DNA from: Peristeroidobacter soli
Lineage (GTDB): Bacteria; Pseudomonadota; Gammaproteobacteria; Steroidobacterales; Steroidobacteraceae
Assembly: GCF_004138485.1 (NCBI RefSeq)
Contig: NZ_RYEV01000011.1
Coordinates: 124,001 to 188,000 of the forward strand
Direction: 5' to 3'
DNA: 64,000 nucleotides
The notes below the pieces were generated by a model that made no database searches, had not been told where the DNA came from, and saw nothing but the letters and a program-made list of their open reading frames with translations. Shown here in pieces: positions 13,461 to 57,419 of this stretch (positions within the stretch are counted from its first letter, which is position 1; every line of letters begins with the position of its first letter). The translations under genes and the position numbers were made by a program.

Positions 13461-13479
13461 ATAGGAACGATGTTCCTAA
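13461..13479 (+). promoter_or_regulatory. Inverted-repeat operator (site A) upstream of the first TonB receptor
   Basis: ATAGGAACGATGTTCCTAA includes the perfect palindrome TAGGAAC-GAT-GTTCCTA. It ends 5 bp before a possible -35 TTGCTG (13485-13490), which is 18 bp from a TATATT -10 (13509-13514). This is an activator-like position. It matches the core found at sites B-E. Confidence 0.6.
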
Positions 13480-13484
13480 ACGAC

Positions 13485-13514
13485 TTGCTGAGTTGCTGCG
13501 GGTCGCGCTATATT
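13485..13514 (+). promoter_or_regulatory. Putative sigma-70 promoter of the first TonB receptor
   Basis: TTGCTG (-35), an 18-bp spacer and TATATT (-10), 39 bp before the GTG start. Called by pattern only. Confidence 0.4.
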
Positions 13515-13552
13515 CCAGTGAACATATCGAAAACAACACCTGGGAGTGATTG

Positions 13553-15934
13553 GTGCGTTTCAACTTTGTGCTCGCCGCGGCGTCGGCTCTGTTGTCGGCA
13601 TCTGCGGTTTCCGCCGAGGAGTCGGCAACACATGGCCACCGCGTCGACGTTGGCGGTGGGCGAGTCCTCGACGAAGTGATGGTGACTGCTCGCCGCCGAG
13701 AGGAGAGTCTGCAGGCTGTTCCCGCAGCGATTTCAGCGATCAGTGGCGATCTGCTGGATAGCTCATATACGGTGAATACGCAGTCGCTCAGTCAGCTCGT
13801 TCCAGCCCTCTACTACAACTCTGCCAATCCAAGGAACACGGCGTACACCATTCGTGGTCTGGGCTCGAACACGCTCTCCATCAGCGCCGCTAACGATGGT
13901 ATCGAACCCGGTGTCGGTTTCTATGTCGACCAGGTCTATCACGGGCGCCCAGCGACTGCGTCGTTCGATTTCACTGACATCGAGCGGGTAGAGGTGCTGC
14001 GCGGTCCGCAGGGAACTTTGTTCGGCAAGAACACGACGGCGGGCGCGATTCATATCATCAGCCGTGAGCCCACCTTTGAACCGGAGGCCAATGGCGAAAT
14101 CTCTTTTGGCGACTACGACTTCAAGCAAGCCAAAGGTGCCGTATCCGGCCCGCTAGTTGGTGACGTCGTGGCGGGGCGCATCTCGGCGCAGATCACCCAG
14201 CGCGACGGTCTGATTCACAATGTCAGAACCGGAAAGGATCTGAACGAACTCGACAACTATGCCGTACGGGGCCAGCTCCTGTTCGTGCCCACTGAAGATC
14301 TCAGGCTGCGTCTCATCGCCGACGTGTCCGATCTCGATTCGGCCTGTTGCACGCAGAATTTCCTTCGAGTCGGTCAGAGCCAACGCAGCGCCGCCCGTCA
14401 ATTTCCCGCGTTAGCCGCTGGGCTGGCTTACGCACCGCCGAGTACGGACGTCTATGACCGCTTGACCGATATCGATGCCAATCTGCGCATCAACACGCAG
14501 GATGGCGGCATCTCTCTGATCGCCGACTGGAACTTGGGCGCGACGATGCTCACATCGGTGACTGCCTGGCGTTACTGGGATTGGGATGTCGCGAACGACC
14601 GCGACTACACCGGTATTCCGATCCAGATGGTTCAGAGGATCCCCTCGCGGCAGGACCAATACAGTCAGGAGATTCGTCTGGCCTCGACGGGCGATGGACC
14701 GCTGAGCTATGTCGGCGGACTCTACTTCTTCCGGCAGGAAATCTCTGGCCGCCCCACGAGTATCTACGGATCCGAAGCTGCGTATTGGCTGCTCAATCAA
14801 TCGAACTTCACAGTGCCGATTCCGCGCAACTTGCTGGATGGGTATGGGCAAGTCGGTAACTCGACCTTCGAGATGAAGAGCTACGCGGCATTTGGTGAGG
14901 TGAACTACAAGTTCACCGAGCGTCTGACCGCGACACTGGGTCTGCGCTACACCGAAGAGGACAAGGAAGGCCGCTATGCGACACAAGTGTTCGGCGGACT
15001 GGATCTGACCGGGCTCGCGCCCGCGGTAGCCGCGGAACTCAATCGTGCCAAGCTTTCGATCTTCCGCCCCCAGAATTACACCGCCGAGGATGATGGCGGC
15101 AGCCTCTCCGGGCGCACCAATCTCGCGTATCAGGTCACGGATGGATTGCTTGCCTATGCGAGCTTTGCATATGGCTACAAGTCCGGCGGCCTGAACATGT
15201 CAGGACTGCCGCTGGACGCGCAGAATCAGCCGGCGCTTGCAACCGCTGTTATCGAAGACGAAAAAAACATTACATACGAAATCGGCTTCAAATCCACGCT
15301 GCTCGATGGCCGGGCGATCTTGAATCTTGCGGCCTATCGGACGGTGGTCGAGGACTATCAAGCGAACATTGTTTCCAGTTTGGAGACGGCGGCCATTCGT
15401 TCGTATCCTGCCAATGTCCCGGAGGTCCGCGTGCAGGGCGTCGAGGCGGACATTGGCGCCGTGCTGTTCGAAGGCTTCACTGTGCGTGCTTCGCTCGCGT
15501 ACGCCGAGGGCGAGAACACCGACTATCCTGCCGGACCATGTCCGCTCGAGGTGCAGACCGCCGCCACCGTGGCCTGCGATCTCACTGGAGTGAAGCTCGC
15601 GGGGCTGTCCGAGTGGGCGGGGTCGCTCGGATTCGACTACCAATTCCCGCTGAGCGCCGGCGATGTTCTCGTCCATGTGGATTCGAGCGCTCGATCTAGC
15701 TACAACAGCGACACCTCCGCGTCACGCTACACGCGCATCGCTGGGTACGGCGTCACCAATGCTAGCGTCGGGTATCGATTTTCCAGCGGATGGGAAGTCG
15801 ATGTGTTCGCTCGCAACTTGTTCGACAAAGACTACATCTCCGCGCTCACGATCCAGACCGGCAACTCCGGCCTGGTCCTGGGGCAGCCCAGCGATCCTCG
15901 TATCGTGGGAGTGACCATGCGAATTTCATTCTGA
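13553..15934 (+). CDS. TonB-dependent outer-membrane receptor
   Basis: A 793-aa protein with a signal peptide (RFNFVLAAASALLSASAVSA), a TonB-box-like DEVMVTARRREES, a plug domain with the conserved RGPQGTLFGKNT, and a 22-strand-type barrel ending in the aromatic residue of VTMRISF. GTG 13553 follows GGGAG by 6 nt; the TTG three bases earlier is less likely. The plug style is that of siderophore/pesticin-type receptors widespread in sphingomonads and Gammaproteobacteria. Preceded by operator site A. TonB/ExbBD genes are not in the window. The ligand is unknown. Confidence 0.9.
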   Translation: MRFNFVLAAASALLSASAVSAEESATHGHRVDVGGGRVLDEVMVTARRREESLQAVPAAISAISGDLLDSSYTVNTQSLSQLVPALYYNSANPRNTAYTIRGLGSNTLSISAANDGIEPGVGFYVDQVYHGRPATASFDFTDIERVEVLRGPQGTLFGKNTTAGAIHIISREPTFEPEANGEISFGDYDFKQAKGAVSGPLVGDVVAGRISAQITQRDGLIHNVRTGKDLNELDNYAVRGQLLFVPTEDLRLRLIADVSDLDSACCTQNFLRVGQSQRSAARQFPALAAGLAYAPPSTDVYDRLTDIDANLRINTQDGGISLIADWNLGATMLTSVTAWRYWDWDVANDRDYTGIPIQMVQRIPSRQDQYSQEIRLASTGDGPLSYVGGLYFFRQEISGRPTSIYGSEAAYWLLNQSNFTVPIPRNLLDGYGQVGNSTFEMKSYAAFGEVNYKFTERLTATLGLRYTEEDKEGRYATQVFGGLDLTGLAPAVAAELNRAKLSIFRPQNYTAEDDGGSLSGRTNLAYQVTDGLLAYASFAYGYKSGGLNMSGLPLDAQNQPALATAVIEDEKNITYEIGFKSTLLDGRAILNLAAYRTVVEDYQANIVSSLETAAIRSYPANVPEVRVQGVEADIGAVLFEGFTVRASLAYAEGENTDYPAGPCPLEVQTAATVACDLTGVKLAGLSEWAGSLGFDYQFPLSAGDVLVHVDSSARSSYNSDTSASRYTRIAGYGVTNASVGYRFSSGWEVDVFARNLFDKDYISALTIQTGNSGLVLGQPSDPRIVGVTMRISF

Positions 15935-15952
15935 CATTCATCGGGAGTCCGG

Positions 15953-17028: not shown

Positions 17029-17158
17029 GGATGCGTGCCGGGCCAGAAGCGATAGAGTAGGTTGATTTCGAATGCTCTTCCACTATGGGAACGACGGTGC
17101 TAAATTTCGACCAACCCCAACCCGGCAGTCTCACCGTCAATGCTCACTAGGAGCGCCT

Positions 17159-18178
17159 ATGGAACTCACTAAAGCTCGCGATCCGCGCGGTCAGGTCGTC
17201 GACGACGAAGCAAGCATCGCACTCATCGACAATCCGGACTCGACGGAGGAGATCCCCACGATCGATTTCGGGCCGTATCTGGACGGCTCGCCCGGCGGGC
17301 GCGAAGCGGTCGCGGCGAAGTTGCGCGAAGTCACCATGACCGTCGGCTTTTTCTACCTGAAGAACCACGGCATTCCGCAGGATGTGATCGACAACGTCTT
17401 TGCCGCATCGAAGCGCTTCCATGCCTTACCGATCGAAGAGAAAGAGAAGGTGTCCTTCAGCGACCGCGAAGGATTCAAGTCGGGATATATCGGCTTTCCG
17501 AAGGAACAGCTGAAGGTAAACAACGTTGGCCTGGTTGCGGGTGCCAAGCCGAACATCCTCGAGCAATACACGGTTCATCTCGAAGGCAGCGGCAATGAGA
17601 ATCGCTGGCCGCAGAATTCCCCGGGCTTCAAAGAGGCCGTGGACAAGTATCATCGCGCCATAGATAAGCTGGCCCGTAGCTTTCTGCCGCTGTGGTCGAT
17701 CTCGTTGAAGCTGCCTCTGGACTATTTCGATCGCTGGTTCTCGAACCCGCATCTCCAGCTCTCGTTGTTGCACTACCCGCCGCAAACGCAGACGGGCAAT
17801 CGGCAGTACGGGATTCAACCTCATACCGACAACGCGATGATGACTTTCTTGGCGCAGGACAACGTGACGGGCTTGGCCGTCCGCATGCCGTCGGGACGCT
17901 GGCGTGCGGTGGAGCCGCGCCCCGGATGCTTGCTTGTCAACACGGGAAATTCGCTCGTTCGCTGGACCAACGAGGAATACCTCTCCACCAAGCATCGCGT
18001 GATCAACACCAACACGGTGGATCGCTATTCGATCCCGGTGTTCTTCGGCCCGAGCGACGACACGGTGCTGGACGTACTGCCCCCGTGCAAGAGCACGGAC
18101 AAGCCCGCTCTGTACGAACCGATTACCTACGGTCAGTTGCGCCGTTGGTACTACAACAAGCCGAAGAAAGACGCTTGA
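17159..18178 (+). CDS. Isopenicillin-N-synthase-like 2-oxoglutarate/Fe(II) oxygenase
   Basis: A 339-aa cytosolic non-heme iron oxygenase. The N-terminal DIOX_N region (IPTIDFGPYLDG ... VGFFYLKNHGIP) precedes the jelly-roll core. Iron ligands are visible: His and Asp of IQPHTDNAMM, distal His of STKHRVINT. The co-substrate Arg is in VDRYSIPVFF (R-x-S). ATG 17159 follows TAGGAG by 5-6 nt; an upstream in-frame ATG at 17072 would add an odd 29-residue leader. It stands between the HbpS-like gene and the esterases and may hydroxylate or oxidatively cleave a pathway intermediate. Confidence 0.85.
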   Translation: MELTKARDPRGQVVDDEASIALIDNPDSTEEIPTIDFGPYLDGSPGGREAVAAKLREVTMTVGFFYLKNHGIPQDVIDNVFAASKRFHALPIEEKEKVSFSDREGFKSGYIGFPKEQLKVNNVGLVAGAKPNILEQYTVHLEGSGNENRWPQNSPGFKEAVDKYHRAIDKLARSFLPLWSISLKLPLDYFDRWFSNPHLQLSLLHYPPQTQTGNRQYGIQPHTDNAMMTFLAQDNVTGLAVRMPSGRWRAVEPRPGCLLVNTGNSLVRWTNEEYLSTKHRVINTNTVDRYSIPVFFGPSDDTVLDVLPPCKSTDKPALYEPITYGQLRRWYYNKPKKDA

Positions 18179-18429
18179 GCCGAACATTACAAAAATAAGA
18201 TGGCTGCCACGCGGCGGTGGCCTGCATGTCATGCTCGGAATTTTTGGGGTTCGAGCCACGCCTGCAGCCTCCGCCGATGTGTCTCGCCGTCCCGTTTCAT
18301 GCCGGTGCCTCTGTCAACCGACAGCCAGGTGGGCACTTAGCCGCAAAGAGCTAAGCCTCAGTCTGCTTAGCTGTCGAATTGAGGCAGGCGAGGACGATTG
18401 CTACGGGGGCATTGTTAAGGAATGCGGAC

Positions 18430-20112
18430 ATGTCGAAGGTTGGCGCGTTCGTGGCTTCTGTCGCGAGGGTTGTAGACCGATGGCGTTGGTTGGCGAGATC
18501 GCATGCTGCGCAGGGCTTGCAACTGGCTCTGGTCTGCTTGAGTGTTTTCACCGGTGTGGCGGTAGCGGGGCATCAGGTGCCCGATCTCGGCGGCGCTCAT
18601 GTTGATGCACGATCAAAACATCAGCGGGTCGTCAGGACGCAGGCCGGATATATCAAAGGATTTGTCGAAAACGGGGCCGAGCAGTTCCTGGGGGTTCCGT
18701 ATGCCAAGCCGCCTGTTGGCGAATTACGTTGGGCCAATCCAGTAGCGCTCGAGCCGTGGCCGGAAGTGCGCGATGCAACCGCGTACGCAAGTCCGTGTCC
18801 TCAGCAGAAGACGCTCGGCAATTTCTCAATGCCCAGTGTCAATGAAGATTGTCTGTACTTGAACGTCTATGTGCCGCGGCGAGGCCGCAAGCATCCCGTC
18901 ATGGTCTGGCTGCACGGAGGCGGATCGGTGGGGCACGGCAACGGTTACGACGGCAGCGTTCTCGCAAGAGAGCAGGGTGTCCTTGTGGTCACCCTGAACC
19001 ATCGAATCGGCGCGTTGGGTGACCTTGTTCATCCTGCCTTCGACAATGGCGGGGCCACGACGCTCTATGAGTTGCGGGATCAGCAATTCGCGCTGAAGTG
19101 GATCAAGGACAACATAGCCGTATTTGGTGGCGATCCTGACAATGTGACGCTTTTCGGAGAGTCGATCGGCGGCGCTTCCATTCAACTGCACATGGTATCT
19201 CCCACGGCGAAGGGTCTCTTCCATAAGGCTATCTTTCAGAGCGGTCCATCCCGTTACTACCACCCTCTGGTGCCGCTGGCCGAGGCCGAAGCGCGCGCTA
19301 AGGTGTTTGCGACGGCAGTCGGCTGCACCGATCAATCAGCGGAATGTCTGCGTAACGTGCCCGTGAGCGCCATTCTCGAGGCCCAGGGCTCGTACGGTGG
19401 CGCGTGCTGTGCGACGTTTCCCGTTGACGATGGCCATGTATTGACCTCGACTGTCTACGAGGCGATTCGATCCGGACAGTTCAATCGAGTTCCATTTCTT
19501 GATGTGACGAATCGGGATGAGCACCGCTGGTTTCTGGCGCTCACCGAGGTGAGCACGAGCCACTCCATCGCTGCCGATGAATATCCGGCGCGACTTCAGG
19601 CGGCTTTCGGCGCCGATGCCGCAATCGTGCAGGCGGCGTACCCGTTGAGCCAGTTCGACTCACCCAGTGGTGCTCTCGCCGCTGCCCAGGGGGATCGTGG
19701 CTATCCGTGTCAAGTACGAAACTTCGACGTGGACGCATCGAAGTATGTTCGGGTGTACGCCGCCGAGTTCAACGATCCGACTTCGGCGGAAGCGGTGCTG
19801 CCGGCCGTCTCCTTCCCTTATCTCTCGGCACACACTCATGAGATTCCGTACATCTTCCCCGGTTGGAAGGGCGCCGCATCGGATCCACTGCCGCCATTGA
19901 ATCGCCAACAGCAGAAACTGGCGAGGCAAATGCGCGAGCTGTGGGCGACGTTCGCGGAGACAGGTGAGCTGCGTGACTATCCTGCGCTGACCAAGAGTCG
20001 TGAAGCCGTGATCTCCCTGGAGATTCCGAGGCTTCGCGTCATCACGGATTTCAGCGAAACGCACCGCTGTCAGCTGTGGAATTCGATCCGAAACTGGACG
20101 CCGGTGCCATAA
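18430..20112 (+). CDS. Exported type-B carboxylesterase (copy 1)
   Basis: A 560-aa protein with an N-terminal export segment (LQLALVCLSVFTGVAVAG). Carboxylesterase/acetylcholinesterase-family features: QFLGVPYAKPPVGELRW, EDCLYLNVYVP, WLHGGGSVGHG oxyanion loop, and the nucleophile elbow FGESIGGAS (G-E-S-I-G-G). The acid is probably the Glu of NRDEHRW and the His that of HTHEIPYIF. AAGGA lies 9 nt before ATG 18430. The next gene is a close paralog 72 bp downstream, so this is a tandem duplication. Likely cleaves an ester in the periplasm. Confidence 0.9.
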   Translation: MSKVGAFVASVARVVDRWRWLARSHAAQGLQLALVCLSVFTGVAVAGHQVPDLGGAHVDARSKHQRVVRTQAGYIKGFVENGAEQFLGVPYAKPPVGELRWANPVALEPWPEVRDATAYASPCPQQKTLGNFSMPSVNEDCLYLNVYVPRRGRKHPVMVWLHGGGSVGHGNGYDGSVLAREQGVLVVTLNHRIGALGDLVHPAFDNGGATTLYELRDQQFALKWIKDNIAVFGGDPDNVTLFGESIGGASIQLHMVSPTAKGLFHKAIFQSGPSRYYHPLVPLAEAEARAKVFATAVGCTDQSAECLRNVPVSAILEAQGSYGGACCATFPVDDGHVLTSTVYEAIRSGQFNRVPFLDVTNRDEHRWFLALTEVSTSHSIAADEYPARLQAAFGADAAIVQAAYPLSQFDSPSGALAAAQGDRGYPCQVRNFDVDASKYVRVYAAEFNDPTSAEAVLPAVSFPYLSAHTHEIPYIFPGWKGAASDPLPPLNRQQQKLARQMRELWATFAETGELRDYPALTKSREAVISLEIPRLRVITDFSETHRCQLWNSIRNWTPVP

Positions 20113-20184
20113 CGATTCATGAGTGTCGGATGCATCGCGCGCCGCAAAGACTTGCGGACCGGATCGTCAATGTCTTGGAGCAAC

Positions 20185-21792
20185 ATGCAGATGCCCTCTA
20201 TTCGATGTTGGGTCGGAGCCTCAATCAAAAGTGTGCTGGCCGCGGTGCTGTTCACGAGCATTACGGTCCACGCGGAGGATGGTCGGAAAGAGGGTGATCG
20301 TCCGATCGTTAAACTTCAGTCCGGCCGGATCCAGGGCTTCATCGAGAACGAGGCTGCCAAATTCCTGGGGGTTCCGTATGCCAAGCCTCCCGTCGGAGCG
20401 TTGCGCTGGGCGGAGCCGGTGGCGATGGACCCGTGGGAGGGCGTGAGAGACGCAACTCGCGAAGGAAACATTTGTCCCCAATCGAACGAGTTGGGCACGG
20501 ATTCCTTGTTCAAGGCCGATGAGGACTGCCTCTATCTGAATATTTTCGCCCCGAGGCGTGGCCGAGGGCATCCGGTGTTGCTGTGGCTCCATGGCGGCGG
20601 AGCGGTGGGGCACGGTAACGGTCTCGATGGCAGTGCGCTTGCCCGGGAGCAGGGCATCGTCGTGGTCGCGATGAATTTTCGGATCGGTGCGCTGGGGCGC
20701 TTGATTCATCCCGCATTGAACGGAGGCGGAGCGACGGCTCTTTATGAGCTACGCGATCAACAGTTCGCGCTGCAATGGATCAGGGACAATATTGCGAGCT
20801 TCGGTGGAGATGCAAATAACGTAACTCTTGCCGGGCACTCAGCAGGTGGGGCTGACGTCCATACACATTTGATCTCTCCGCTGGCAAAGGGGCTTTTCCA
20901 TAGAGCGATCTTCGAGAGTGGGACCTCGGCATATTTCAATCGGTTGACCTCGCTGTCAGACGCCGAGGAGCGCGGCAGGTCCTTTGCTGTTGCGGCTGGA
21001 TGTCCAGATCAGACGGCTTCGTGTCTGAGGAAGTTGCCAGTAAGCACGATTCTCAAAGCGCAAGGCTCATTTGCTGGGTCGTGCTGCTTTACCTTGCCTA
21101 TAAACGACGGTCACATTGTTTCATCGACGGTGCACGATGCGGTCCGGTCGGGCCAGTTCAACCGTGTGCCCATTCTTGATGTCACGACGCGTGACGAATA
21201 CCGCTGGTTTGCTGCTCTCAGCGAGATCAAGACCGGTCATGTGATGACGGCGCAGGAATATCCGGCCAGTATACAAGCGGCGTTCGGTGCCGATGCTCCA
21301 GCGGTATTGGCAGCCTATCCGCTCGGCGATTTCGACTCTCCGGGTGGAGCGCTCGGCACGGCAAGGGGGGACTACATACACTCGTGCCAAGCGCGCAGTT
21401 TTGATGTGGACGCGTCCAAGTTCGTTCCGGTGTACGCTGTGGAGTTCAGCGATCGCAACTCGCCGCAAGACATGTTGCCGCCGGTTTCATTTCCGTACCT
21501 TGCATCTCATGGGCATGACCTTGGCTACCTTTTCCCCGGATCGAAGCGAAGAGCTGCGCTGCCTCCGATGCCGCTGAACGCCGACCAGGAAGTGTTGGCG
21601 AGGAGAATGCGCCAGCTTTGGGGGCACTTCATAACTACGGGGTCGCTGCCGCCGGAGATGCCGAGGGTGACCAAGAACCAAATCGCAGTGGTGTCGCTGG
21701 ACATTCCGGAAATCCGCGTAGTCGACGATTTCCGCGTGGCCCATAAGTGCGATCTATGGGATTCGCTTCGTAAGTGGTCTGCTGTCCAGTGA
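20185..21792 (+). CDS. Exported type-B carboxylesterase (copy 2)
   Basis: A 535-aa paralog of the preceding gene with the same order of motifs. Its nucleophile elbow is AGHSAGGAD: the residue before Ser is His instead of the usual Glu, and the flanking sequence differs from copy 1, so specificity has probably diverged. Glu of TTRDEYRW and His of ASHGHDLGY fill the other triad positions. The signal peptide is IKSVLAAVLFTSITVHA. Starts at 20185 (GGAG 4 nt upstream), 20191 or 20119 are possible. Confidence 0.9.
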   Translation: MQMPSIRCWVGASIKSVLAAVLFTSITVHAEDGRKEGDRPIVKLQSGRIQGFIENEAAKFLGVPYAKPPVGALRWAEPVAMDPWEGVRDATREGNICPQSNELGTDSLFKADEDCLYLNIFAPRRGRGHPVLLWLHGGGAVGHGNGLDGSALAREQGIVVVAMNFRIGALGRLIHPALNGGGATALYELRDQQFALQWIRDNIASFGGDANNVTLAGHSAGGADVHTHLISPLAKGLFHRAIFESGTSAYFNRLTSLSDAEERGRSFAVAAGCPDQTASCLRKLPVSTILKAQGSFAGSCCFTLPINDGHIVSSTVHDAVRSGQFNRVPILDVTTRDEYRWFAALSEIKTGHVMTAQEYPASIQAAFGADAPAVLAAYPLGDFDSPGGALGTARGDYIHSCQARSFDVDASKFVPVYAVEFSDRNSPQDMLPPVSFPYLASHGHDLGYLFPGSKRRAALPPMPLNADQEVLARRMRQLWGHFITTGSLPPEMPRVTKNQIAVVSLDIPEIRVVDDFRVAHKCDLWDSLRKWSAVQ

Positions 21793-22131
21793 ACATTGAC
21801 ATCGGCGGCCGAACGCTAGATTCATAAACAATCCGATGAGACCGGCTGCTGCCGGCATCGTCCGCCGATAGTTGCTCCGGTAACTTCGTCATCCGGGCCT
21901 CTGTTCGCCCGGTTTTCTCGGCTTTTCACGTGCCTCGCTGTCAACCCGGCAGTCGCCCCGCGTCCGCATTGCATTCGAAGCGTGTGCCTAAGACCGCTCG
22001 TGATATGTGGCCAACGCAGCTTGCTTGCGACCCTCTCTGTGGCGCAGTATCGGATATACGAACGACGTTCGCAAAAAGCGTCGCGTTCGCATTGGGGGAT
22101 GAGATTCCATTAAAACAATGGGAGGCAGAAC
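21793..22131. other. 339-bp intergenic region with operator site B
   Basis: No credible gene. It holds operator site B at 22056-22074 and a GGGAGG ribosome-binding site for the second TonB receptor. A loose TTCGCA/17/ATTAAA promoter pair (22086-22114) is possible but leaves a very short leader. Confidence 0.5.
22056..22074 (+). promoter_or_regulatory. Inverted-repeat operator (site B) upstream of the second TonB receptor
   Basis: ATACGAACGACGTTCGCAA, with the palindrome CGAAC-GAC-GTTCG. It matches the ATNNGAAYGAYRTTC core exactly and lies 57 bp before the ATG. Confidence 0.6.
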
Positions 22132-35688: not shown

Positions 35689-35723
35689 GCGCGGATTCCT
35701 TAACTAGCTATCAATGCTCGTGG

Positions 35724-47150: not shown

Positions 47151-47174
47151 TCCTTGGCTTTATTAGAGACTGCA

Positions 47175-48566: not shown

Positions 48567-48595
48567 TCGGGGCCTCGCAAGGTTTGGAGTTTAGA

Positions 48596-49735
48596 ATGCA
48601 ACAGGTAAAGACGTCCGTGCTGCGCGCCGCGCTTGCTTTCGCTTTGGGGGCTGGCGTATTCCAAAGTGCCGCCGCGGCCGAAAGTTCGCGGGTCGATCCG
48701 CTCAAGCCGCTGATGCTCACGAGCGACGGTCGGCTTGCTTACATCATTACGACGCGGCACTGGGCGGTTTATCCGGGCAAGGATCTCAAGACGGAGTGTC
48801 CCAAAGGCACTAACGACGGACCCCGGGAGCAGTTTGAGAAGCAGTTTCCGACTAACGGTGCCAAGCGGACGCTGGTGGATACACAGCTCATGCGCGAAGG
48901 TCGTCAATGGTTTCCTTCGACCGAGCGCGAGCCGTTCGAGTTCAAGGAGGTCGCTGGCAAGGTCTCCTATGGCATGGACCTCGATGGCCAGGTGAAGCCC
49001 ACCGATTTCGTCGGCCCCGACGGCGAGAAGGGCATCGACAACCAGCTGTTCCGTGCGATCGGCTGTATTTCTTCCTATCGTCCACCAGGCGGGCACTGGC
49101 GCACCAGTGAGACCCAGACGCTGCGTCGCTACAACTACAACCGGTTCGTGATCGAGATCACAGGCGTCGACAGCTTGGAAAACGACGCGCAGGTGACTGT
49201 CAAAAGCTATCGCTCGCTGGATCCTCTGATGACCGATGCCAGCGGTGAGTCGTTCACTCCGGGCGCGCCACAAGAGATCGATGAGCGCTGGGGCGCTTTT
49301 GCTCAATCGACCTGGACTGGTAAGATCGTCAATGGCGTTCTCATCACCGATCCTGCGGATTTGGTGATGCCTACGGCGATGAGTTTCGGTACGACCGCAA
49401 ACCACGAGCTCAGGGGCGTGCGTTTCAAACTGACCCTGACGCCGGAGAGCGCCAAGGGCTTCATGGCCGGGTATGCGGGTGTCGATGACTTCATCAGGCA
49501 CTTGAATGTGTCATCCGCCACTGCCATTCAGAGCTATGGACAGCTGTCCTCGCCGTCGCTGTATCGAGCAATGCATCGCCTGGCGGACGGCTATCCCGAT
49601 CCGAAGACCGGCGAGATGACGGCGATCTCGTCGGCATTGGAAGTGGAGTTCACGCGCGTCTTCCTGACACGCGGCAGTGCGACCACCGGCGAGAATCCGC
49701 AGTTGTCGCAAGTCAAGTCAGGCACGAAAAAGTAG
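48596..49735 (+). CDS. Secreted protein of unknown function (paralog 2 of a pair)
   Basis: A 379-aa protein with signal peptide (LRAALAFALGAGVFQSAAAA), related along its length to the protein at 42675-43793. Shared blocks are NDGPREQF, TQLMREGRQWFPS, AGKVSYGMDLDGQVK, GIDNQLFRAIGCI, LRRYNYNRFVIEI, SYGQLSSPSLYRAMHRLADGYPDP and MTAISSALEVEF. Cysteines are few. It is the last gene of the five-gene run; GGAG precedes ATG 48596 by 7-8 nt, and a terminator hairpin follows. Confidence 0.75.
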   Translation: MQQVKTSVLRAALAFALGAGVFQSAAAAESSRVDPLKPLMLTSDGRLAYIITTRHWAVYPGKDLKTECPKGTNDGPREQFEKQFPTNGAKRTLVDTQLMREGRQWFPSTEREPFEFKEVAGKVSYGMDLDGQVKPTDFVGPDGEKGIDNQLFRAIGCISSYRPPGGHWRTSETQTLRRYNYNRFVIEITGVDSLENDAQVTVKSYRSLDPLMTDASGESFTPGAPQEIDERWGAFAQSTWTGKIVNGVLITDPADLVMPTAMSFGTTANHELRGVRFKLTLTPESAKGFMAGYAGVDDFIRHLNVSSATAIQSYGQLSSPSLYRAMHRLADGYPDPKTGEMTAISSALEVEFTRVFLTRGSATTGENPQLSQVKSGTKK

Positions 49736-49804: not shown

Positions 49805-51511
49805 CTATCCTCCGGGCTCCGTTACCGGTTCGGTGAGCGAGGCTGCCGTCGTTTGAGCGGCAGGCGAGAAGGTCGCTGGGCGCTCGAGCATGCGTTGTAT
49901 GATCGGCGATCCGGGGCCGCGATGGAGCGCCTTGAGGCGTTCGAACAGGCTTGCGTCATCCTTGGTGACGCGGCTGGTGTGCCGGATGTACTCGAGCCAT
50001 GTCGCTGTCTCATAGCGCTCGATCCAGATCTCACGATTGGCGAGATCGCGCAATAGCGTGACGTTGCGTGCGCCGTCGCGCCGTCGGATGCGTTGTCGCT
50101 CGGCCATCAAGCTGAGAAACTCGCCGACATCCGCCTCCTGGATACGATATTGAACGGACACCACCACCGGACCGGTGCGAAAGTCGACCGGCACATCGGT
50201 CTCGGGTTGGTGCGATGGCCAGAGCGGATCGAGGTTGAGAGACCTCACTTCCGATACCGGTAGCCAATGGCCGACGACGGCATTCGAGAGTATGACGCAG
50301 GCAGCGGTTAACAATGCGAGCTGGAGGCCGCCATGTCCGGCGAGCGCGCCGAGCGCCCAACTGCCCATAGCCATGCCGCCATAGGTCGCCATCTGATAAA
50401 TCGACAATGCGCGAGCGACGACCCAGCGCGGCGTAGCCATTTGGACCGCGACGTTGTAAGTCGATAGCGCGAGCACCCATGACGCCCCCGTCAAGACCAA
50501 GGCAAACATCGTGAGCCACAGATGACTGCTGAGGCCTATCACCGCCGCGGCGGATGCGCAGCTGATGCTTGCTGTTCGCACCACTCCTTCTGTTGAGAGT
50601 CTCAGCCGGAGCGGCGCGCTGCATAGTCCGCCAGCCATCGCGCCCAGGCCGAATGCACCCGACAGCAATCCATAGGTAAAGGGACCGCCCCCGAGAAGAT
50701 GTTTGGCCACGACGGGCATCAACGCCATCGTGGCGCTTGCGCCAAAACCAAACAATGCCCCGCGAGCCAAGACGGTGCAGATCGCCGGTGACATGCTGAC
50801 GTAGCGGATTCCTGCAGCGACGGCCATGCCGAGAGGTTCGCGTGGCAGCGTTTTTGATTCGGTAGTGCGACGCCAGCGGGCCAGCACACCGACGAGACCG
50901 ATCTTGCCGAGCGCATTTACCGCGAAGGCGGCTGCTGGACCGGCGCTTGCCACAATGATTCCGCCGATCGCGGGGCCGACACTGCGAGCCATGTTGTATC
51001 CCATGCTGTTGAGCGCAACTGCACTCGGTAGCTGGGAGCGCGGAACGATATCGCCGACCGACGCGCCCCACGCTGGGTAGTAGAAGGCGCCGCCACAGCC
51101 GATCAGGAACGTCAGCGACAGCAGCAGCCAGGGTGTGAGTACTCCCGCCCAAGTGCATACGGACAGGATGCAGGACATCACCACCATGAACGCTTGAGAC
51201 GCCAGCAGCATCTTGCGGCGCTCGATGTTGTCGGCCATCGCGCCGGCAAACAGGGACAGCAGCATGATGGGCAGTGCCACCGCAGTTTGTACCAGCGCCA
51301 CCATATCGGCAGTGCCGACAATCGACAGCATCATCCAAGATGCGCCGACTGACTGGATCAGGCCGCCGAGGTCCGAAACCAGGGACGCGGCCCACAGAGA
51401 GCGATACGTCCGCATTCTTAGGGGCGCGAACGCCGATTCAGTACCGGATGCTTCGCCCGGAGTTGCCTTGGATTCGTTGGTCACAGAGAAGTCTCGAGCC
51501 GTGCGCTGCAT
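49805..51511 (-). CDS. MFS transporter (EntS/MFS_3 type) with C-terminal monooxygenase-like domain
   Basis: A 568-aa protein. About residues 30-430 form 12 membrane helices of the enterobactin-exporter-like MFS_3 group (YRSLWAASLVSDLGGLIQSVGASWMML). About residues 440-550 are soluble (VVVSVQYRIQEADVGEFLSLMAERQR..ARNVTLLRDL..WIERYETATWLEYIRH) and look like the dimeric alpha-beta barrel appended in this family. It is divergent from a MarR gene, its likely regulator. Start ATG 51511; a GTG at 51592 would add 27 residues. Confidence 0.87.
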   Translation of the reverse strand: MQRTARDFSVTNESKATPGEASGTESAFAPLRMRTYRSLWAASLVSDLGGLIQSVGASWMMLSIVGTADMVALVQTAVALPIMLLSLFAGAMADNIERRKMLLASQAFMVVMSCILSVCTWAGVLTPWLLLSLTFLIGCGGAFYYPAWGASVGDIVPRSQLPSAVALNSMGYNMARSVGPAIGGIIVASAGPAAAFAVNALGKIGLVGVLARWRRTTESKTLPREPLGMAVAAGIRYVSMSPAICTVLARGALFGFGASATMALMPVVAKHLLGGGPFTYGLLSGAFGLGAMAGGLCSAPLRLRLSTEGVVRTASISCASAAAVIGLSSHLWLTMFALVLTGASWVLALSTYNVAVQMATPRWVVARALSIYQMATYGGMAMGSWALGALAGHGGLQLALLTAACVILSNAVVGHWLPVSEVRSLNLDPLWPSHQPETDVPVDFRTGPVVVSVQYRIQEADVGEFLSLMAERQRIRRRDGARNVTLLRDLANREIWIERYETATWLEYIRHTSRVTKDDASLFERLKALHRGPGSPIIQRMLERPATFSPAAQTTAASLTEPVTEPGG

Positions 51512-51621
51512 GACTATGTCGATTCGGCGCGAGTGCGAGTGAAGCAAATCTGTCGAGTAGCGGAACTCGTCGTAGGATTGCGCTCGTGGCACGGCCTGTC
51601 AATAAAAAGAATAATATACGG

Positions 51622-51633
51622 ATATGAGAACGG
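51622..51633 (+). promoter_or_regulatory. Operator-like half-site before the MarR gene
   Basis: ATATGAGAACGG, 28 bp before the MarR ATG and between the divergent MFS and MarR genes. It matches the TATRNGAAY half-site seen in the A-E operators; no second arm is evident. Confidence 0.3.
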
Positions 51634-52164: not shown

Positions 52165-52200
52165 GCAACGACGTTGTGCCTCAGTGGAAGAATGTGGCGC

Positions 52201-53685
52201 CTAGAGCTTGGAGAATGCGGCGTCGAGACGCGCGTCCGCGGCAGCTAGTTGTTCGTTCTTTTCTCGTAGCCAGCCACGATCGGTTTCCAGCTGCAGGGCG
52301 AGTTCGCGAAGCATTGCCGCCACTTCGGCGGGCTGCGGTCCGCCATAGCCGCGGCTCGACATGACCATGTTCTCTGGCCGTAGGACTCGCTTGAACTCGG
52401 CTTCGTTGAATGCCGCCCGCAAGCGAGGCAAGTGATATTTCGCAGCCGCGTCGGCGTAGATCCGCTTGAAATCTCCGAAGGCAATCTCCGTGGGGCGCAG
52501 TTTGCGATCACGGCCGAACTGCACGACTGCGGCCGCGACATGATGTGCGTCCCGGAACGGCACGTCGGCGAGTCGTTGCAAAGCGTTAGCAAGTTCGGTC
52601 GCCACGGCATAGTCGCTGAGAACTTCGTCCAGAGCGCGGGGTTCGTCAAATTGCAACACTGAAAAGATCCTTGCCACGCTTCGCATCATCGCAGCCGTGT
52701 CTGTCAATGCCTCGTTCGGGCCGGAAAACATCAGATCGGTGTCTCCCGCGGACGCCTTGTGGGCACCAAACATGTACGACACGCTGCGCCCGAGCACAGT
52801 GCTCGCTTGAGCGCGTGTTTCGTTGATCATGGTCGGATTCAACTTCTGCGGCATGATGCTGCTCCCGACTGTCAGTTCTCGCGGCAGCGTGAGCCACGGA
52901 TGGGTCATCCGATATTGATCCTCGAGATCCGACATGAGCTCGCTGGTCGTCATGGCCATAGCGGAAGTTGCGCCGGTGATGCGCATGCTGGCTTCGAGCG
53001 TGGCAAGCTGCACGGCATCGAAGGAATTGCGAATCGGTGCTTCGAAACCCAGCAGATCGGCGAGTCGCTGGCGATTGATGAGGTAGCTCGACGTTCCCAG
53101 TGCAGCCGCGCCTAGCGGTGACTGATTGATGTTTAGGTACGTGTCCGCCAGTAAGGTGGCGTGCCGCTCGAAGACGCTCAGATAGCCGGCGATGTAGTGA
53201 CCCAATGACGTTGGCTGCGCCTGCACGCCCAATGTATAAGCTGGGACGATTGCTTGGGCATGAGCTTCGTCGAAGCGGAGCAGTGTCGCGCGTGCCTCGA
53301 GAAGCTCCTGATATGAGTTCAGTATCAGATCGCGCTGCTGGAGTCGCAGGTTGGTCCGGCCGGTGTCGATGGTGCTTCGGCCAGTGTGCAAGCGTGAGAC
53401 GTCGGGGCCGCCAATCTCCAGCAGACGAGGCTCGATGGATACATAGAGGCCGCTGCGGCGGAAGTTCGGCTCGCGCGACTCCGCGTGTAGTTTCTCAATC
53501 GCCGCAGCGATGGTCGCCGCTTGTTTCGGTTCGATGATGTCTTCTTCGAGCAGCATGACGGCCGAGGCGCGGTTCATTCGATCCAGCCACTCGAACGGAT
53601 CGCGCGCCTCGCGAGCCTGCAGTCGCGGTGCCAGGCCGAGCAGCATTAGCAGGCACGTCGCGGTTCTCATCGAAGATCGAAGCAT
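52201..53685 (-). CDS. Exported fumarase/aspartase-superfamily lyase (argininosuccinate lyase-like)
   Basis: A 494-aa protein. The superfamily signature GSSIMPQKLNPTMINE is intact, as are the substrate loops TGRSTIDTGRTNLR and QAQPTSLGHYIAG. Unlike normal members, it begins with a Sec signal (TATCLLMLLGLAPRLQA), so it should act in the periplasm. It would split or form a C-N or C-O bond to fumarate, or act on a related dicarboxylate. GGAGGAAA precedes ATG 53685. It is the third gene after HiPIP and cytochrome c. Confidence 0.82.
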   Translation of the reverse strand: MLRSSMRTATCLLMLLGLAPRLQAREARDPFEWLDRMNRASAVMLLEEDIIEPKQAATIAAAIEKLHAESREPNFRRSGLYVSIEPRLLEIGGPDVSRLHTGRSTIDTGRTNLRLQQRDLILNSYQELLEARATLLRFDEAHAQAIVPAYTLGVQAQPTSLGHYIAGYLSVFERHATLLADTYLNINQSPLGAAALGTSSYLINRQRLADLLGFEAPIRNSFDAVQLATLEASMRITGATSAMAMTTSELMSDLEDQYRMTHPWLTLPRELTVGSSIMPQKLNPTMINETRAQASTVLGRSVSYMFGAHKASAGDTDLMFSGPNEALTDTAAMMRSVARIFSVLQFDEPRALDEVLSDYAVATELANALQRLADVPFRDAHHVAAAVVQFGRDRKLRPTEIAFGDFKRIYADAAAKYHLPRLRAAFNEAEFKRVLRPENMVMSSRGYGGPQPAEVAAMLRELALQLETDRGWLREKNEQLAAADARLDAAFSKL

Positions 53686-53749
53686 TGGGGTTTCCTCCGC
53701 GACTGCCTGGCCGGACAACTGCCCTCAGGTCTGGGCAGTGTCTCTACCG

Positions 53750-55045
53750 TCAGCGCTGTCGGCTCACGTCCGCCGGCTCGACGGCGCTGGCCCGGTTGCC
53801 CCAATTGTTTCTCACATAGCTGAGTAAGTCTGCGACTTCCTGATCCGACAGCTTGTCGGCGTAGGGTTCCATCGTTTTCCAACGTCGTGCCTGCCATTCC
53901 GATGACGGCGCCTCATGGGGCAGCTCGGGGGCATGCAGAGTTGCATTGATCAGCGAGGCAGGATCGGGGGCCAGCACAATGGAGCTGCCTGCCAGTGGCG
54001 GCGCAGTCGTGTCCGAGCCCAGTCCTGTCGGCAAATGGCATGTGCCGCAGTGGATGGAGTACAGCAAGTCGCCTTTACGCAGGGTTTCGGCACTGGGTGT
54101 TTTGCTCACGCTCTGCTCCCGGGCGGGCAGGGACTTCAAATACACCGCCATGGCGCGCACATCGCTTTGTGACATATGGCGGGTGCTATTGAGGATGACT
54201 TCGTTCATCGGCCCAAATACGCCCGCGCGAGCGCTGACGCCGAAGTGCAGGTAAGAGGCTACTTCGTCGACTGACCACGCACCCAATCCGCTCGGTGCAG
54301 TTGTGAGATTCGTCGTGGACCATGCGCGAAGCTTGCCTGCGGAAGGATGTGTTTGGCCACCGCCCGTGAGCGCCATTGCGTTGTCTTCAGCGCCGAGAAA
54401 GTTTCTCGGAGAATGGCAGGCTCCGCAATGGCCGAGCCCCTGCACTAGATAGGCGCCGCGATTCCATTCGGCAGATTGGCTGGCGTCCTGTTGATAGCTG
54501 CCCGTCTCGAAGAAGAGCGCCTTCCATACGCCGAGTAGCCAGCGTTGGTTGAATGGGAATCGCATATCGTTCTCGGGCGGCCGATAGTTGACGGCATCGA
54601 CTGTCTTGAGGAAGGCCCATAGAGCTGTGGCGTCGGCGTCCGTGATTTTCGTGAAGGCCGTATAGGGAAAGGCGGGGTACAGGTGGCTGCCATCGGCCCG
54701 AATGCCTTCGCGCAGCGCGCTGATGAACTGCTCTTCGGTCCAGCCGCCGATGCCTGTCTTGGCATCGGACGTGATGTTCGTCGAATAGATCGTACCGAAG
54801 TCGGTGTGAAACGCGACTCCGCCGGAAAACGGGGCGCCGCCATTTCGCGTGTGACAACTGGTGCAGTTGCCGGCTGTGGCGAGATAGCGGCCGCGCTCCA
54901 CTGGATCCGCAGCTTGATCGACATCGGCGATCGCGGTGGTCGCGGCCAAGCTCAGCAGGTTGGTTACGATCGCCAACCAGCCAAGAGCATATTGTTTGAA
55001 ATGACGCGTGCGCAGCGGCTGTGCCGAATGGTAGGGGGCCGTCAT
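53750..55045 (-). CDS. Triheme cytochrome c (alcohol dehydrogenase AdhB-like subunit)
   Basis: A 431-aa exported protein with three heme c sites: CTSCH near residue 60, CGACH near 210 and CGTCH near 340, each in a cytochrome c domain with downstream Met-ligand candidates. The order and length are those of membrane-bound dehydrogenase cytochrome subunits (AdhB, GndC). No dehydrogenase catalytic subunit is adjacent, so its electron donor is unknown; the HiPIP gene just upstream suggests a shared electron path. ATG 55045 follows the HiPIP stop by 7 bp. Confidence 0.88.
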   Translation of the reverse strand: MTAPYHSAQPLRTRHFKQYALGWLAIVTNLLSLAATTAIADVDQAADPVERGRYLATAGNCTSCHTRNGGAPFSGGVAFHTDFGTIYSTNITSDAKTGIGGWTEEQFISALREGIRADGSHLYPAFPYTAFTKITDADATALWAFLKTVDAVNYRPPENDMRFPFNQRWLLGVWKALFFETGSYQQDASQSAEWNRGAYLVQGLGHCGACHSPRNFLGAEDNAMALTGGGQTHPSAGKLRAWSTTNLTTAPSGLGAWSVDEVASYLHFGVSARAGVFGPMNEVILNSTRHMSQSDVRAMAVYLKSLPAREQSVSKTPSAETLRKGDLLYSIHCGTCHLPTGLGSDTTAPPLAGSSIVLAPDPASLINATLHAPELPHEAPSSEWQARRWKTMEPYADKLSDQEVADLLSYVRNNWGNRASAVEPADVSRQR

Positions 55046-55052
55046 GTCTCTA

Positions 55053-55415
55053 TCAGCCAGCGGCGGTGTTCGGAGTTGCGGCACGCGCTGTCCAGGATCT
55101 GCAATAGCCCCCCGGATTGACCGGGCCTCCATTGAACATGTCACATTTGCCGCAGGCCTCGCCTGAGGCGGGGGCGTGAAAGAAGGCGCATCCGGCACAG
55201 ACGCTTTGCGGGTTGCTGGATTGCTCGACGTAGCCCACGGCTTTTCGAGTGGAGAGCTCGGTAGGACCGAGTTTGGACGGGTCGGCGCAAGCCTGCGTGG
55301 CGCCAGTGGTTTTGGAGCCGCCGCCGCAGGCGCTCAACGTCGCTGCCACTGCTACACCGGCGGACAAGTGCAGTCCGCGTTCCAACAAAGCTCGTCGAGT
55401 GATGCGCCAGTTCAT
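55053..55415 (-). CDS. High-potential iron-sulfur protein (HiPIP)
   Basis: A 120-aa Tat-exported protein (TRRALLERGLHLSAGVAVAATL). The HiPIP cluster pattern is VCAGCAFF, then ACGKCDMF, then GGYCRSW: four cysteine ligands plus one extra Cys. These are soluble periplasmic electron carriers. It is the first gene of an operon with the triheme cytochrome c and the exported lyase. Confidence 0.88.
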   Translation of the reverse strand: MNWRITRRALLERGLHLSAGVAVAATLSACGGGSKTTGATQACADPSKLGPTELSTRKAVGYVEQSSNPQSVCAGCAFFHAPASGEACGKCDMFNGGPVNPGGYCRSWTARAATPNTAAG

Positions 55416-56132
55416 GAAGTCACCTGTGTCATGTCAAACCCCGATGAAGTGCCAGGCAGCTAGTGGTCGGCGCGGCCGCAGGCGCCCACCCTGTCCTGGC
55501 TGATTGTTGTTCCGGAAACGCTTCCCGCTGCTGTGAGCGCGAGAGCGTGGGCTGCGCTGCATTCACAGTGCCCCTTCGCGAAGCAACGATCCGCAGCATT
55601 CGAGGCGTGTGAGGCGCGCCGGCAATGGCCTGGAGCGCTCCTATCGATCTGCGCTTCGCCGTCACGTCGATGTCGTGGGAATTTCCCCAAAGTAGATCGA
55701 TGCTTGTGCGGTTATGAGAATGTCATTCCCATCTTGGTGAGTCAAGTTACACACCGTTCATTTGTGGGGTGGCATTCTGATATGAGCACGTAAGATCGCG
55801 ACCGAGGCTGAGGCTGCCCGCGCCGATGCCCTGAGCGATCGGCCCGCCGAAGGCGCACATTGATGTACGTGGCTTCAGCTGGTTACTAGATCAATCGGCG
55901 CGGCAGCGAAGGTCTTGATGCTGTCGCCAGCATTGCGACGTTGCGCCGATGCCAGAGTTGGCGGCGTTGGAAGAACGCTTACTGGGGCATGCTCGCATGC
56001 TATGCGAGGGAGCTACGCCGATCCGCGCACTCGGGAGCGGTGCTGGTCGTGAGTCGGCGCTATCGTTTGAGGGCGGGGCAGTCGGAGGCCTGTTGAGGCC
56101 TCCGAGATGGGAGTGGGCGTCGCCCGCGCCCT
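55416..56132. other. 717-bp intergenic region with operator site E
   Basis: No frame looks coding. Operator site E lies at 55714-55732, about 300 bp before the HiPIP start, and may drive the minus-strand HiPIP operon. Confidence 0.5.
55714..55732 (-). promoter_or_regulatory. Inverted-repeat operator (site E)
   Basis: On the minus strand it reads ATGGGAATGACATTCTCAT, which fits the shared core exactly. The palindrome is the most symmetric of the set (ATGRGAATG-N-CATTCYCAT). Confidence 0.6.
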
Positions 56133-56981
56133 TTATTCTTCCTCTATATGCCCGAGGATGCGTGAAATTTCCTTGGCTCCGCTCTTCACCAATTTCGACA
56201 TCATGGCTGCGTTCTGCTGGCCGCGGATGACCGGCGCGCCAATGGATAGCGCGGCAACGACTTCGCCGCCGCGTCCGAAGACCGGCGAGCCGAAGCCCAT
56301 CACGCCCTCGCTGACATCTTCGTTGGTCGTCGTGAGGTAGGACTTGCGCGCGTCTTGAATCAAGCCTTCCAGCTCACTGCGAGTCATTTTCTTTTTCTTC
56401 GGGTTGATCGGCTCGAGCTTGGTCTTGGCGAGATAATCCTTGCGGAACTCGTCGCTTTGAAATGCAAGCAGCACGCGACCACCGGCAGAGCTGTAGAGCG
56501 GGCGGCGCTCGCCGACGTTGGCGATGAAGCGGATTGCACGTGTGCTTTCTGCTTTGTCGATATACACGGCATAGGCTGCATCCGACGACAGCTCGGCCAG
56601 AAGAATGGTTTCGCCGCTTTGCTCCGCGAGCTTTTGCAGCACCGGCCGGGCGAGTTGACCAAGCTTGCGCTGACCGATGATGACCGAACCGAGGGCGAAT
56701 GCCTCGGGCCCGAGGGCGTAGCCGGCCTCCCGCTGCACCACATACCCGGCTTCAACGAGGGTACGCAACAGGGCAAGCAAGCTCGTTTTAGGTGTCCGAA
56801 TCGCCAGACTGAGCTGTGCGAGGCTCGAACTCTCTTCCGACATTGCAAGTACGCGAAGCACATTCAGCAATCGGGTCACCGAACGGGGACCGCTGCGTCG
56901 GACCTTTTCAACGCCGCGCCCGCGTTTGGCGGGACGCTGCCCTTCGGGCGCACTGACGACATTCAAGCGTGCGCTGCTCAT
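56133..56981 (-). CDS. IclR-family transcriptional regulator (paralog 2)
   Basis: A 282-aa regulator closely similar to the one at 26561-27430: both begin SSARL-VVS, share RRSGPRSVTRLLNVLRVLA and TPKTSLLALLRTLVEAGYVVQREAGY, and keep the effector-domain blocks (RRPLYSSA-GR-LLAFQS). Such conservation of the recognition helix implies the same or overlapping operators. ATG 56981 has GGAGT upstream. It is divergent from the second orphan SBP gene, with operator site D between. Confidence 0.9.
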   Translation of the reverse strand: MSSARLNVVSAPEGQRPAKRGRGVEKVRRSGPRSVTRLLNVLRVLAMSEESSSLAQLSLAIRTPKTSLLALLRTLVEAGYVVQREAGYALGPEAFALGSVIIGQRKLGQLARPVLQKLAEQSGETILLAELSSDAAYAVYIDKAESTRAIRFIANVGERRPLYSSAGGRVLLAFQSDEFRKDYLAKTKLEPINPKKKKMTRSELEGLIQDARKSYLTTTNEDVSEGVMGFGSPVFGRGGEVVAALSIGAPVIRGQQNAAMMSKLVKSGAKEISRILGHIEEE

Positions 56982-57419
56982 CGAACCACTCCGCTTAGTT
57001 CCATCATTAGTAGTTCCGTCCTCTGGCGGTTGAGTTGCCTGAGATCTCATAAATCTGGACCGATTAGCCAGTTTACACGAATTTCCGGAGTTACAAGGTC
57101 GCAACCGTTGACGACTGACTGACGGTTGGCATAGCCGACTGAGGCCAGGAGGCCGCCGACGATGGGGTGTAAACCGGTCGCGCCCCCTCGCCGACCTCTA
57201 ATCAAGAAAAGAATATCATTCCCATAGGCGCACACGCTACAATTGTTCGATCTAAATCGCGACTTTTCCCACCCGCTCATGCCGGTGCGAAGTCGCAATG
57301 TCGGTGGAGTGCTCGCTCGGCCTGAGTGCGTCATCGCTGACCGCTCAACGGTACGGACTTTCCGTCTTCGCGCAACACCACTGTCGCTGACCCATGTGCA
57401 AGACGAGGAACCGCAGACC
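56982..57419. other. Divergent region between IclR 2 and SBP 2, with operator site D
   Basis: 438 bp. It includes operator D (57207-57225) and a TACAAT -10-like hexamer (57238-57243). The frame upstream of the SBP is open back to 57243 but lacks protein character, so it is treated as leader. Confidence 0.5.
57207..57225 (-). promoter_or_regulatory. Inverted-repeat operator (site D)
   Basis: On the minus strand it reads ATGGGAATGATATTCTTTT; the first 15 bases are identical to site C. It overlaps the -35 zone of a TACAAT (57238-57243) promoter reading toward the SBP. Confidence 0.6.

Follow-up and report, generated by a model that had tools for sequence, protein, structure and literature searches.

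Introduction

Several regulators of pyridine-ring or aromatic catabolism provide a background to the locus described here. According to those parts of the published sources on which we draw, here and below, NicR of Pseudomonas putida and BpsR of Bordetella are MarR-family regulators of nic genes (PMC6837509), whereas NicR2 of P. putida is a TetR repressor of nicotine degradation that acts at two promoters (PMC6550519). PheR of Sphingobium is an IclR-type repressor whose deletion raises TonB receptor expression (PMC13273656). As a rule, an IclR protein regulates its own gene and one or two operons next to it, and the family includes repressors, activators, and dual regulators. Two types of IclR operator have been described, TGRAACAN1-2TGTTYCA and GKTYCRYW3-4RYGRAMC, in addition to a GTNCG-N5-6-CGNAC class, and three-box sites, known for PcaU, PobR, and HmgR, join both operator types (Suvorova and Gelfand 2021, PMC8222616). 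Here, we analyzed a stretch of 64,000 nucleotides from Peristeroidobacter soli (the window; positions 124001–188000 of contig NZ_RYEV01000011.1, abbreviated C10), in which a 19-base inverted repeat recurs before TonB receptor and catabolic genes. We propose that an IclR-family regulator, most likely the paralogous pair IclR1 and IclR2 encoded in the window, very probably binds this repeat as its operator, and that the repeat defines a single pyridine regulon.

Results

Nine copies of the repeat lie in one locus

The nine sites, designated A and C–J, lie within 62 kb of one contig. Five of them (A, C, D, F, and G) had been reported in an earlier note on the window, with correct coordinates and strands. 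The pattern ATNNGAAYGAYRTTC matched exactly at all five and had no match in 100 dinucleotide shuffles of the window. As the note held, the five sites stand between genes, which are supported by Pfam and codon usage. Operator A (13461–13479, + strand; exact core) is 70 bases before the open reading frame (ORF) of TonB receptor 1 (13550–15934, assigned by Pfam), and operator C (22056–22074, +; exact core) is 57 bases before that of TonB receptor 2 (22132–25026), for which the codon score favors a start at 22216. Operator D (37383–37401, − strand, with an exact core on the + strand and a third box CGTAC at N6 in the − strand reading) lies between two divergent units, 486 bases from the acyl-CoA dehydrogenase/CoA-transferase/LeuC-LeuD-like genes (−) and 374 bases from the nicD operon (+). 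Operator F (55714–55732, −; exact core; third box CGCAC), 298 bases upstream of the HiPIP/cytochrome c/lyase genes, is the best palindrome of the five, 16 of its 19 positions agreeing with the reverse complement. Operator G (57207–57225, +, with an exact core on the − strand and a third box CGCAC on the + reading) separates iclR2 (−) from the gene of an NMT1-type binding protein (+).

Pfam bears out the neighbors that had been named, i.e. two TonB receptors, an alpha/beta hydrolase, HiPIP, cytochrome c, a lyase, IclR, and the NMT1-type binding protein. The neighbors were thus right, but codon usage places three starts probably farther from the sites than the longest ORFs imply. NicD would start at 37776, 374 bases away from D, and on the two sides of G the binding protein would start at 57396 (distance 170 bases) and IclR2 at 56981 (225 bases). 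Nor were the five sites the full set, since four more are present, all 24–112 bp ahead of genes. Two are in the window, operator E (44042–44060, +; one mismatch to the core), 31 bases before a PSCyt/HXXSHH operon, and operator H (58577–58595, +; one mismatch), 24 bases before a 2-oxoacid ferredoxin oxidoreductase gene. The other two are beyond it, operator I (C10:195684, 7.7 kb past the window; exact core) between flavin monooxygenase and molybdenum hydroxylase subunit genes, and operator J (C10:199779) 112 bases before a NicX-like gene. Altogether, six of the nine sites are found 24–112 bases before a start codon.

The genome-wide distribution points to a single regulon

The genome comprises 9,374,132 bases in 17 contigs, and C10 is 276 kb long. 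The 15-base core has 11 exact matches in this genome, and a reversed control pattern has none. Six matches, the five noted sites and I, are intergenic and fall within 58 kb of C10 (137461 to 195698). The remaining five lie in long ORFs with Pfam matches (acyl-CoA dehydrogenase, aldolase, PASTA/FG-GAP repeats, PD40/amidohydrolase, and response-regulator/sigma-54 activator). The earlier note had called for such a scan, and a motif that is common, randomly spread, or mainly intragenic is not what the scan revealed, as the island matches are intergenic and the other five are in ORFs. The same contrast lends good support to its suggestion of one regulator for the island.

The chance estimate offered previously was biased, the motif having been derived from its own sites, and we replaced that figure by a held-out test. 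A symmetric matrix built from the five given sites only was scanned over the 276-kb contig, and its top nine places were these five and I (first, score 27.2), H (seventh, 20.5), E (eighth, 18.1), and J (ninth, 17.9), with C10:68078 ranking tenth at 17.1. One third-order Markov sequence of 9.37 Mb contained 3 places scoring at least 18 and 10 scoring at least 17 (best 24.7), so that about 0.1 to 0.3 places are expected per contig at those scores. A sequence model of the five sites (150 of 4417 candidates scored) returned ten places in the genome, all on C10 and with the held-out I on top, at E values of 0.5 or worse. R1, a 36-column model with all nine sites as its training set (150 of 761 first-look candidates scored), put these nine ahead of every other scored place in the genome, with E values of up to 0.03; outside the island, nothing did better than E 1.4. 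Of the matches outside the contig, 14 loci were inspected (C11:66990 being left out and L020 being the same as L002), and all the sites in them fall in ORFs of at least 297 amino acids, that at C1:659365 over the initial codons. ORFs of such length are common in the genome, and seven of these were checked against Pfam. No intergenic copy of the motif was found outside the island in 9.37 Mb.

Weaker matches on the contig were rejected as sites. The match at 15917 (score 16.7) coincides with the 3' end of the TonB receptor 1 gene, its final codons and stop (MRISF-stop), and such C-terminal ends are usual in TonB receptors. Three others are too weak, i.e. 51605–51623 (16.4), a candidate tenth site 12 bases before the MFS transporter gene 49805–51592 (−), 17085 (15.3), near the start of an oxygenase ORF, and C10:217785 (10.4), before a second molybdenum hydroxylase gene. 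No place scoring above 16 was found before the 2OG-oxygenase/esterase genes (17072–21792) or before iclR1. Genes for a 2OG-Fe(II) oxygenase and carboxylesterases form two sets, at 17072–21792 in the window and at L038:1577–4590, each without a strong operator of its own. There is also a second pyridine-type locus without a strong operator (L039:9933–19661, corresponding to C10:217933–227661), with genes for a molybdenum hydroxylase, an ABC transporter ATPase, a second NicX (75% identical), an NMT1-type binding protein, an FAD subunit, and a flavin monooxygenase.

The operator combines a palindrome with conserved flanks at six sites

We infer that the basic unit is the palindrome ATnnGAAYGNCRTTCnnAT and that it is bound by a dimer. 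The core fits GAAYRNYRTTC exactly at seven of the nine sites, H and J being the exceptions. Six sites (D, E, F, G, I, and J), all read in one orientation, have the palindrome preceded immediately by CAAG (CGAA in J) and followed by A-NNN-G-N-AC, and beyond about eight bases on each side no column is conserved among them out to 60 bases. At a distance of six bases from the right arm, the distal flank of these six amounts to a half-site, CGYAC (in E, GGCAC), whereas A, C, and H have the palindrome alone in common. Five of the nine sites have an exact CGNAC box to one side or the other, spaced by N5 or N6 (chance 2% per site; binomial P 4e-7), the box having been taken from print but looked up after the conservation of the flanks had been seen. 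Second palindromes 18–22 bases from the nine sites were considered and rejected, since the only one at three mismatches (C, +18) is within background, unlike the Variovorax promoters described below.

Promoter elements were read by eye, without statistics. At H, a TTGACC-N17-TACAGT pair ends five bases before the site, which would cover the start point. At G, a −10-like TACAAT begins 12 bases past the site, which would overlie the −35 element, and at I a TATACT hexamer begins at the same distance, again placing the site over −35. At E, TTGACG-N18-CAGAAT overlaps the left arm. These four operators appear to be placed as for a repressor.

Two paralogous IclR proteins are the candidate regulators

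The window encodes two IclR-family proteins, IclR1 (26561–27430, +; IclR_C 3.1e-31, HTH_IclR 3e-10) and IclR2 (56133–56981, −; IclR_C 7.2e-29, HTH_IclR 5.5e-8; start by codon usage), which are 72% identical over 283 residues. The stretch presumed to form the recognition helix, TPKTSLLALLRTLVEAGYVVQREAGY, is identical in both. Operator G occupies the upstream region of iclR2, between this gene and its divergent neighbor. The earlier proposal of an IclR paralog as the putative regulator gains support from the operator type, from site G beside iclR2, and from the common helix-turn-helix (HTH). HTH_IclR matches number 17 in the genome, including one on the same contig at C10:72736. When the main ORFs of the window and of L038 were scanned, the only other DNA-binding regulator domain belongs to a LysR protein (11744–12637), whose gene ends 0.8 kb before site A and has none of the nine sites. 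No MarR or TetR gene was found among the ORFs scanned in these two regions, a scan that did not cover every ORF.

Genes next to the operators suggest a pyridine pathway

The nicD operon downstream of D encodes a NicD-like deformylase (37776–38579, +), which matches PDB 4l0c ("Deformylase") at E 2e-64, with the next match at 1.4e-14, and which we take to be an N-formylmaleamate deformylase. It is followed by an isochorismatase-family amidohydrolase (38613–39239, +; PF00857 4.3e-34; best solved relative 3.4e-15), possibly a maleamate amidohydrolase. On the other side of D are LeuD/LeuC-like hydratase subunits (32754–34513, −), above the cut-offs of the subfamily models NF001614 and TIGR02087 and a possible maleate hydratase, and a class III CoA-transferase with an acyl-CoA dehydrogenase (34513–36896, −; Pfam). 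The NicX-like protein (2,5-dihydroxypyridine 5,6-dioxygenase) encoded after J has 7cn3 as its sole sequence match to E 0.01 (E 1.4e-92), and 3' of its gene are those of an acyl-CoA thioesterase, a CoA ligase, an SDR, and a MaoC-like protein. The flavin monooxygenase at I has tropone monooxygenase as its best relative and 6-hydroxynicotinate 3-monooxygenase among its solved relatives. The molybdenum hydroxylase subunit at I best matches 6-hydroxypseudooxynicotine dehydrogenase, and next to it is a succinate-semialdehyde dehydrogenase above cut-off. For the nicotinate branch (NicAB, NicC), the hydroxylase and the monooxygenase match at the family level only. The regulon would thus serve the uptake and aerobic breakdown of a pyridine via 2,5-dihydroxypyridine, the substrate being perhaps nicotinate, a nicotine-type succinoylpyridine, or another compound. 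This pathway is not visible from the window, since nicX and the molybdenum hydroxylase lie outside.

Operator F is upstream of genes for HiPIP (8.9e-7 to the HIPIP family), a cytochrome c, and an ArgH-like lyase, the last two by Pfam (52201–55415, −). On the + strand, G faces the NMT1/THI5-like periplasmic binding protein gene (57396–58514, +; PF09084 2.6e-23; start by codon usage), and H precedes a gene for an indolepyruvate ferredoxin oxidoreductase family protein (58620–62090, +; NCBIfam NF009588, 1673.9 bits versus a cut-off of 952). We considered a D-malate dehydrogenase role for a LeuB-like protein (62120–63271), but it scores above the cut-off for true 3-isopropylmalate dehydrogenase, which tells against that role. 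Downstream of E are genes for PSCyt (DUF1588/1592), HXXSHH (DUF1552), and Lipoprotein_15 proteins and for one protein of no Pfam family (44092–49735, +; Pfam), an unusual companion of a pyridine pathway. Elsewhere in the window there is a group II intron (4107–6017) with a reverse transcriptase ORF (4484–5923), the only Rfam match, in two pieces.

Related cores recur at pyridine-type promoters of Variovorax

No close orthologue of IclR1 or IclR2 was found in 150 genomes of the family (best 40%), and none at E 1e-50 in 368 other genomes of the class, the six best candidates of each being scored in the latter search. Plasmids gave 42% at best, and a scan of genome contigs with two short peptides gave two proteins at 30–31%. 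The R1 model revealed no second cluster of sites: of 216 further genomes of the family, 5 had a single weak match, as did 6 of 397 others of the phylum; these are no more than chance at the threshold used, stricter filters lose weak matches, and the two draws may overlap.

In Variovorax sp. SRS16, a plasmid carries an IclR gene divergent from genes for a binding protein, a molybdenum hydroxylase, a flavin monooxygenase, an isochorismatase, a hydrolase, and a NicX-type protein, with GAATGACGTTC in the gap between the IclR gene and the divergent operon. A plasmid of V. boronicumulans EBFNA2 encodes an IclR 86% identical to that of SRS16 at a matching operon, the promoter of which has the core with one mismatch (by eye). 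A separate nicD-nicX promoter there contains GAATATCATTC, which is identical to the core of G and to that of D on the opposite strand. The element TTGAC(A/G)-N18-CAGAAT is common to these three Variovorax promoters and to site E, again by eye. The Variovorax nicX-type promoters at L072:555–640 and L073:8100–8140 have two palindrome-like copies 20 bases apart. Among plasmid nicX loci, of which 4 of 202 records were looked at, the relaxed core is in the promoter region of L072 and L073 (a second copy in L072 being inside the binding-protein gene), absent from L074, and inside nicX in L075, and two of the four are thus without a promoter core. In Markov sequence, the relaxed core occurs 0.2 times per 19 kb, with a maximum of 2 in 100 trials, so it is the position of the Variovorax copies, not their count, that carries the argument. 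Near relatives of the IclR proteins, the core pattern is present at two of eight loci, L048 and L051 (but not L044, L045, L053, or L069–L071). In L048, from a same-genus genome, a palindrome at 1065–1083 has GAACGACGTTC, the core of site C. It occupies the gap that follows an IclR gene (34% identity to IclR1), and the next ORF begins 74 bases further on; in L051, the core overlaps ORFs.

Discussion

The nine sites, their confinement to one locus, the gene families around them, and the paralogy of IclR1 and IclR2 are established. Binding by IclR, the direction of control, and the inducer are predicted from the sequence as follows. An IclR dimer would bind the palindrome, and both IclR1 and IclR2 would be expected to recognize it. 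Where the third half-site CGYAC is present, six bases on, it would add a contact or an alternative mode of dimerization. Without inducer, the protein at E, G, H, and I, apparently lying over −35, −10, or the start point, would block RNA polymerase, and a pathway intermediate would release this repressor, opening nine promoter regions together. The genes so opened would be those of the TonB receptors, the molybdenum hydroxylase, the flavin monooxygenase, NicX, NicD with the amidohydrolase, the hydratase with the CoA genes, the electron carriers, and IclR2. Control of the "whole catabolic island," as first suggested, is too strong a claim, as the oxygenase/esterase genes, iclR1, and the second nicX-type locus (C10:218–228 kb) are without a strong site.

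Several observations weigh against this reading. There is no operator at the iclR1 promoter. D is 374 (or 486) and F 298 bases from the nearest likely operon starts, and A stands just upstream of a TTGCTG-N18-TATATT pair. The exact third box was not found at A, C, E, or H. When flanks were tested held-out, seven sites gave p values of 0.0016–0.023, but C gave 0.07 and H failed (0.22), and in most sites it is the CTTG side, not the third box, that fits best. Because no close orthologue of the two IclR proteins was found, the sites are not comparable by cross-species footprinting. The core is absent near nicX elsewhere (0 of 17 loci from 16 genomes, about 1.5 kb on either side), R1 matches nothing in Variovorax at E 1, and the Variovorax systems are, as judged from their sequences, parallels and not orthologues.

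How do other explanations fare? That the five original sites resemble one another by chance, having been selected from a long stretch, would fit a motif derived from the very sites it describes, but it has next to no probability, given that a matrix blind to them recovered four further sites, that shuffles gave none, and that the off-island exact matches are inside Pfam-matched ORFs. A dispersed intergenic repeat, REP-like or the remnant of a mobile element, is hardly more credible. Conservation of about eight bases on each side in six sites might suggest one, but the absence of intergenic copies elsewhere in 9.37 Mb, the lack of any conserved column beyond those eight within 60 bases, the location of six of the nine sites 24–112 bases before a start codon, and the fact that A, C, and H share the palindrome alone all argue for operators. 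If the sites are operators, they might belong to a regulator other than IclR1/2 (the LysR protein at 11744–12637, another IclR, or one encoded elsewhere), the two IclR genes being bystanders. The LysR gene does end close to site A, and the genome holds many other HTH_IclR proteins, including one on C10. We nonetheless regard this as improbable, since the core and the third box follow published types of IclR site, site G adjoins iclR2, and the LysR gene is without a site.

A more serious alternative, which we still judge unlikely, is that IclR1 and IclR2 activate the same promoters instead of repressing them. PcaU and PobR are activators. Three-box sites are those described for PcaU, PobR, and HmgR, activators are found in the family, and A lies upstream of a −35-like element; against this, the promoter-like sequences at E, G, H, and I have their −35, −10, or start-point positions overlapped by the operator, as read by eye. 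Within the favored reading of IclR1 and IclR2 as a pair on common operators, we speculate, with somewhat less conviction than attaches to activation, that the duplicated proteins share nine operators of two classes, so that uptake and breakdown are tuned apart. One class, at enzyme promoters (D, E, F, G, I, and J), would then be GAATG-type and flanked by CAAG-like and CGYAC-like sequences, and the other, just as tentatively, GAACG-type without those flanks at the two TonB promoters (A and C), with H in between. Each paralogue, or a mixed tetramer, might prefer one class.

Comparison with known systems

By eye, the operator resembles group 2 of the published IclR sites (TGRAACAN1-2TGTTYCA) in being an odd palindrome with GAAC/GTTC half-sites, although its inner bases are G-N-C where that consensus has A-N-T. 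It resembles three-box sites in a third box of alternating direction with the N5-6 spacing of the GTNCG-CGNAC class. In the part of that survey used here, centers are mostly 20–80 nt before starts, as is the case for five of our nine sites (A, C, E, H, and I), whereas nine sites in one locus depart from the family norm (PMC8222616). The core, inner bases included, may also be likened to the KdgR consensus quoted in PMC13273656. The Variovorax clusters are alike in having an IclR gene divergent from molybdenum hydroxylase/flavin monooxygenase/isochorismatase genes and a related core at their promoters; they differ in that their IclRs are 23–24% identical to IclR1/2, that a second imperfect copy follows 20 bases on, and that the flanks are not shared. 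The pathway under NicR and BpsR has a 2,5-dihydroxypyridine stage. Their regulons resemble the present one in the coordinated control of a pathway, and differ in being governed by MarR, not by IclR as predicted here, and in that TonB receptors, HiPIP/cytochrome, and PSCyt genes belong to the regulon here (PMC6837509). NicR2 resembles the predicted regulator in repressing a pathway, that of nicotine, which partly overlaps nicotinic acid degradation, but it is a TetR protein with two promoters in place of nine IclR-type sites (PMC6550519).

The literature matches listed contained no case of IclR control of nicX or of pyridine-ring catabolism, one mention of IclR proving to be a phthalate reference. 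Sequence alone gives a large catabolic island a pathway, a probable regulator, and a testable operator. If our proposal is true, IclR can be added to MarR and TetR as a family that controls pyridine-ring catabolism, here in a regulon that also takes in outer-membrane receptors. A duplicate regulator pair acting on one set of operators would then be available for study. The system described for Sphingobium is alike in that PheR is an IclR repressor of an aromatic catabolic operon with a link to a TonB receptor. It differs in its core, GCAACG, in controlling a phenanthrene operon, and in that the effect on TonB comes from transcriptomes, whereas here putative operators stand at the TonB promoters themselves (PMC13273656).

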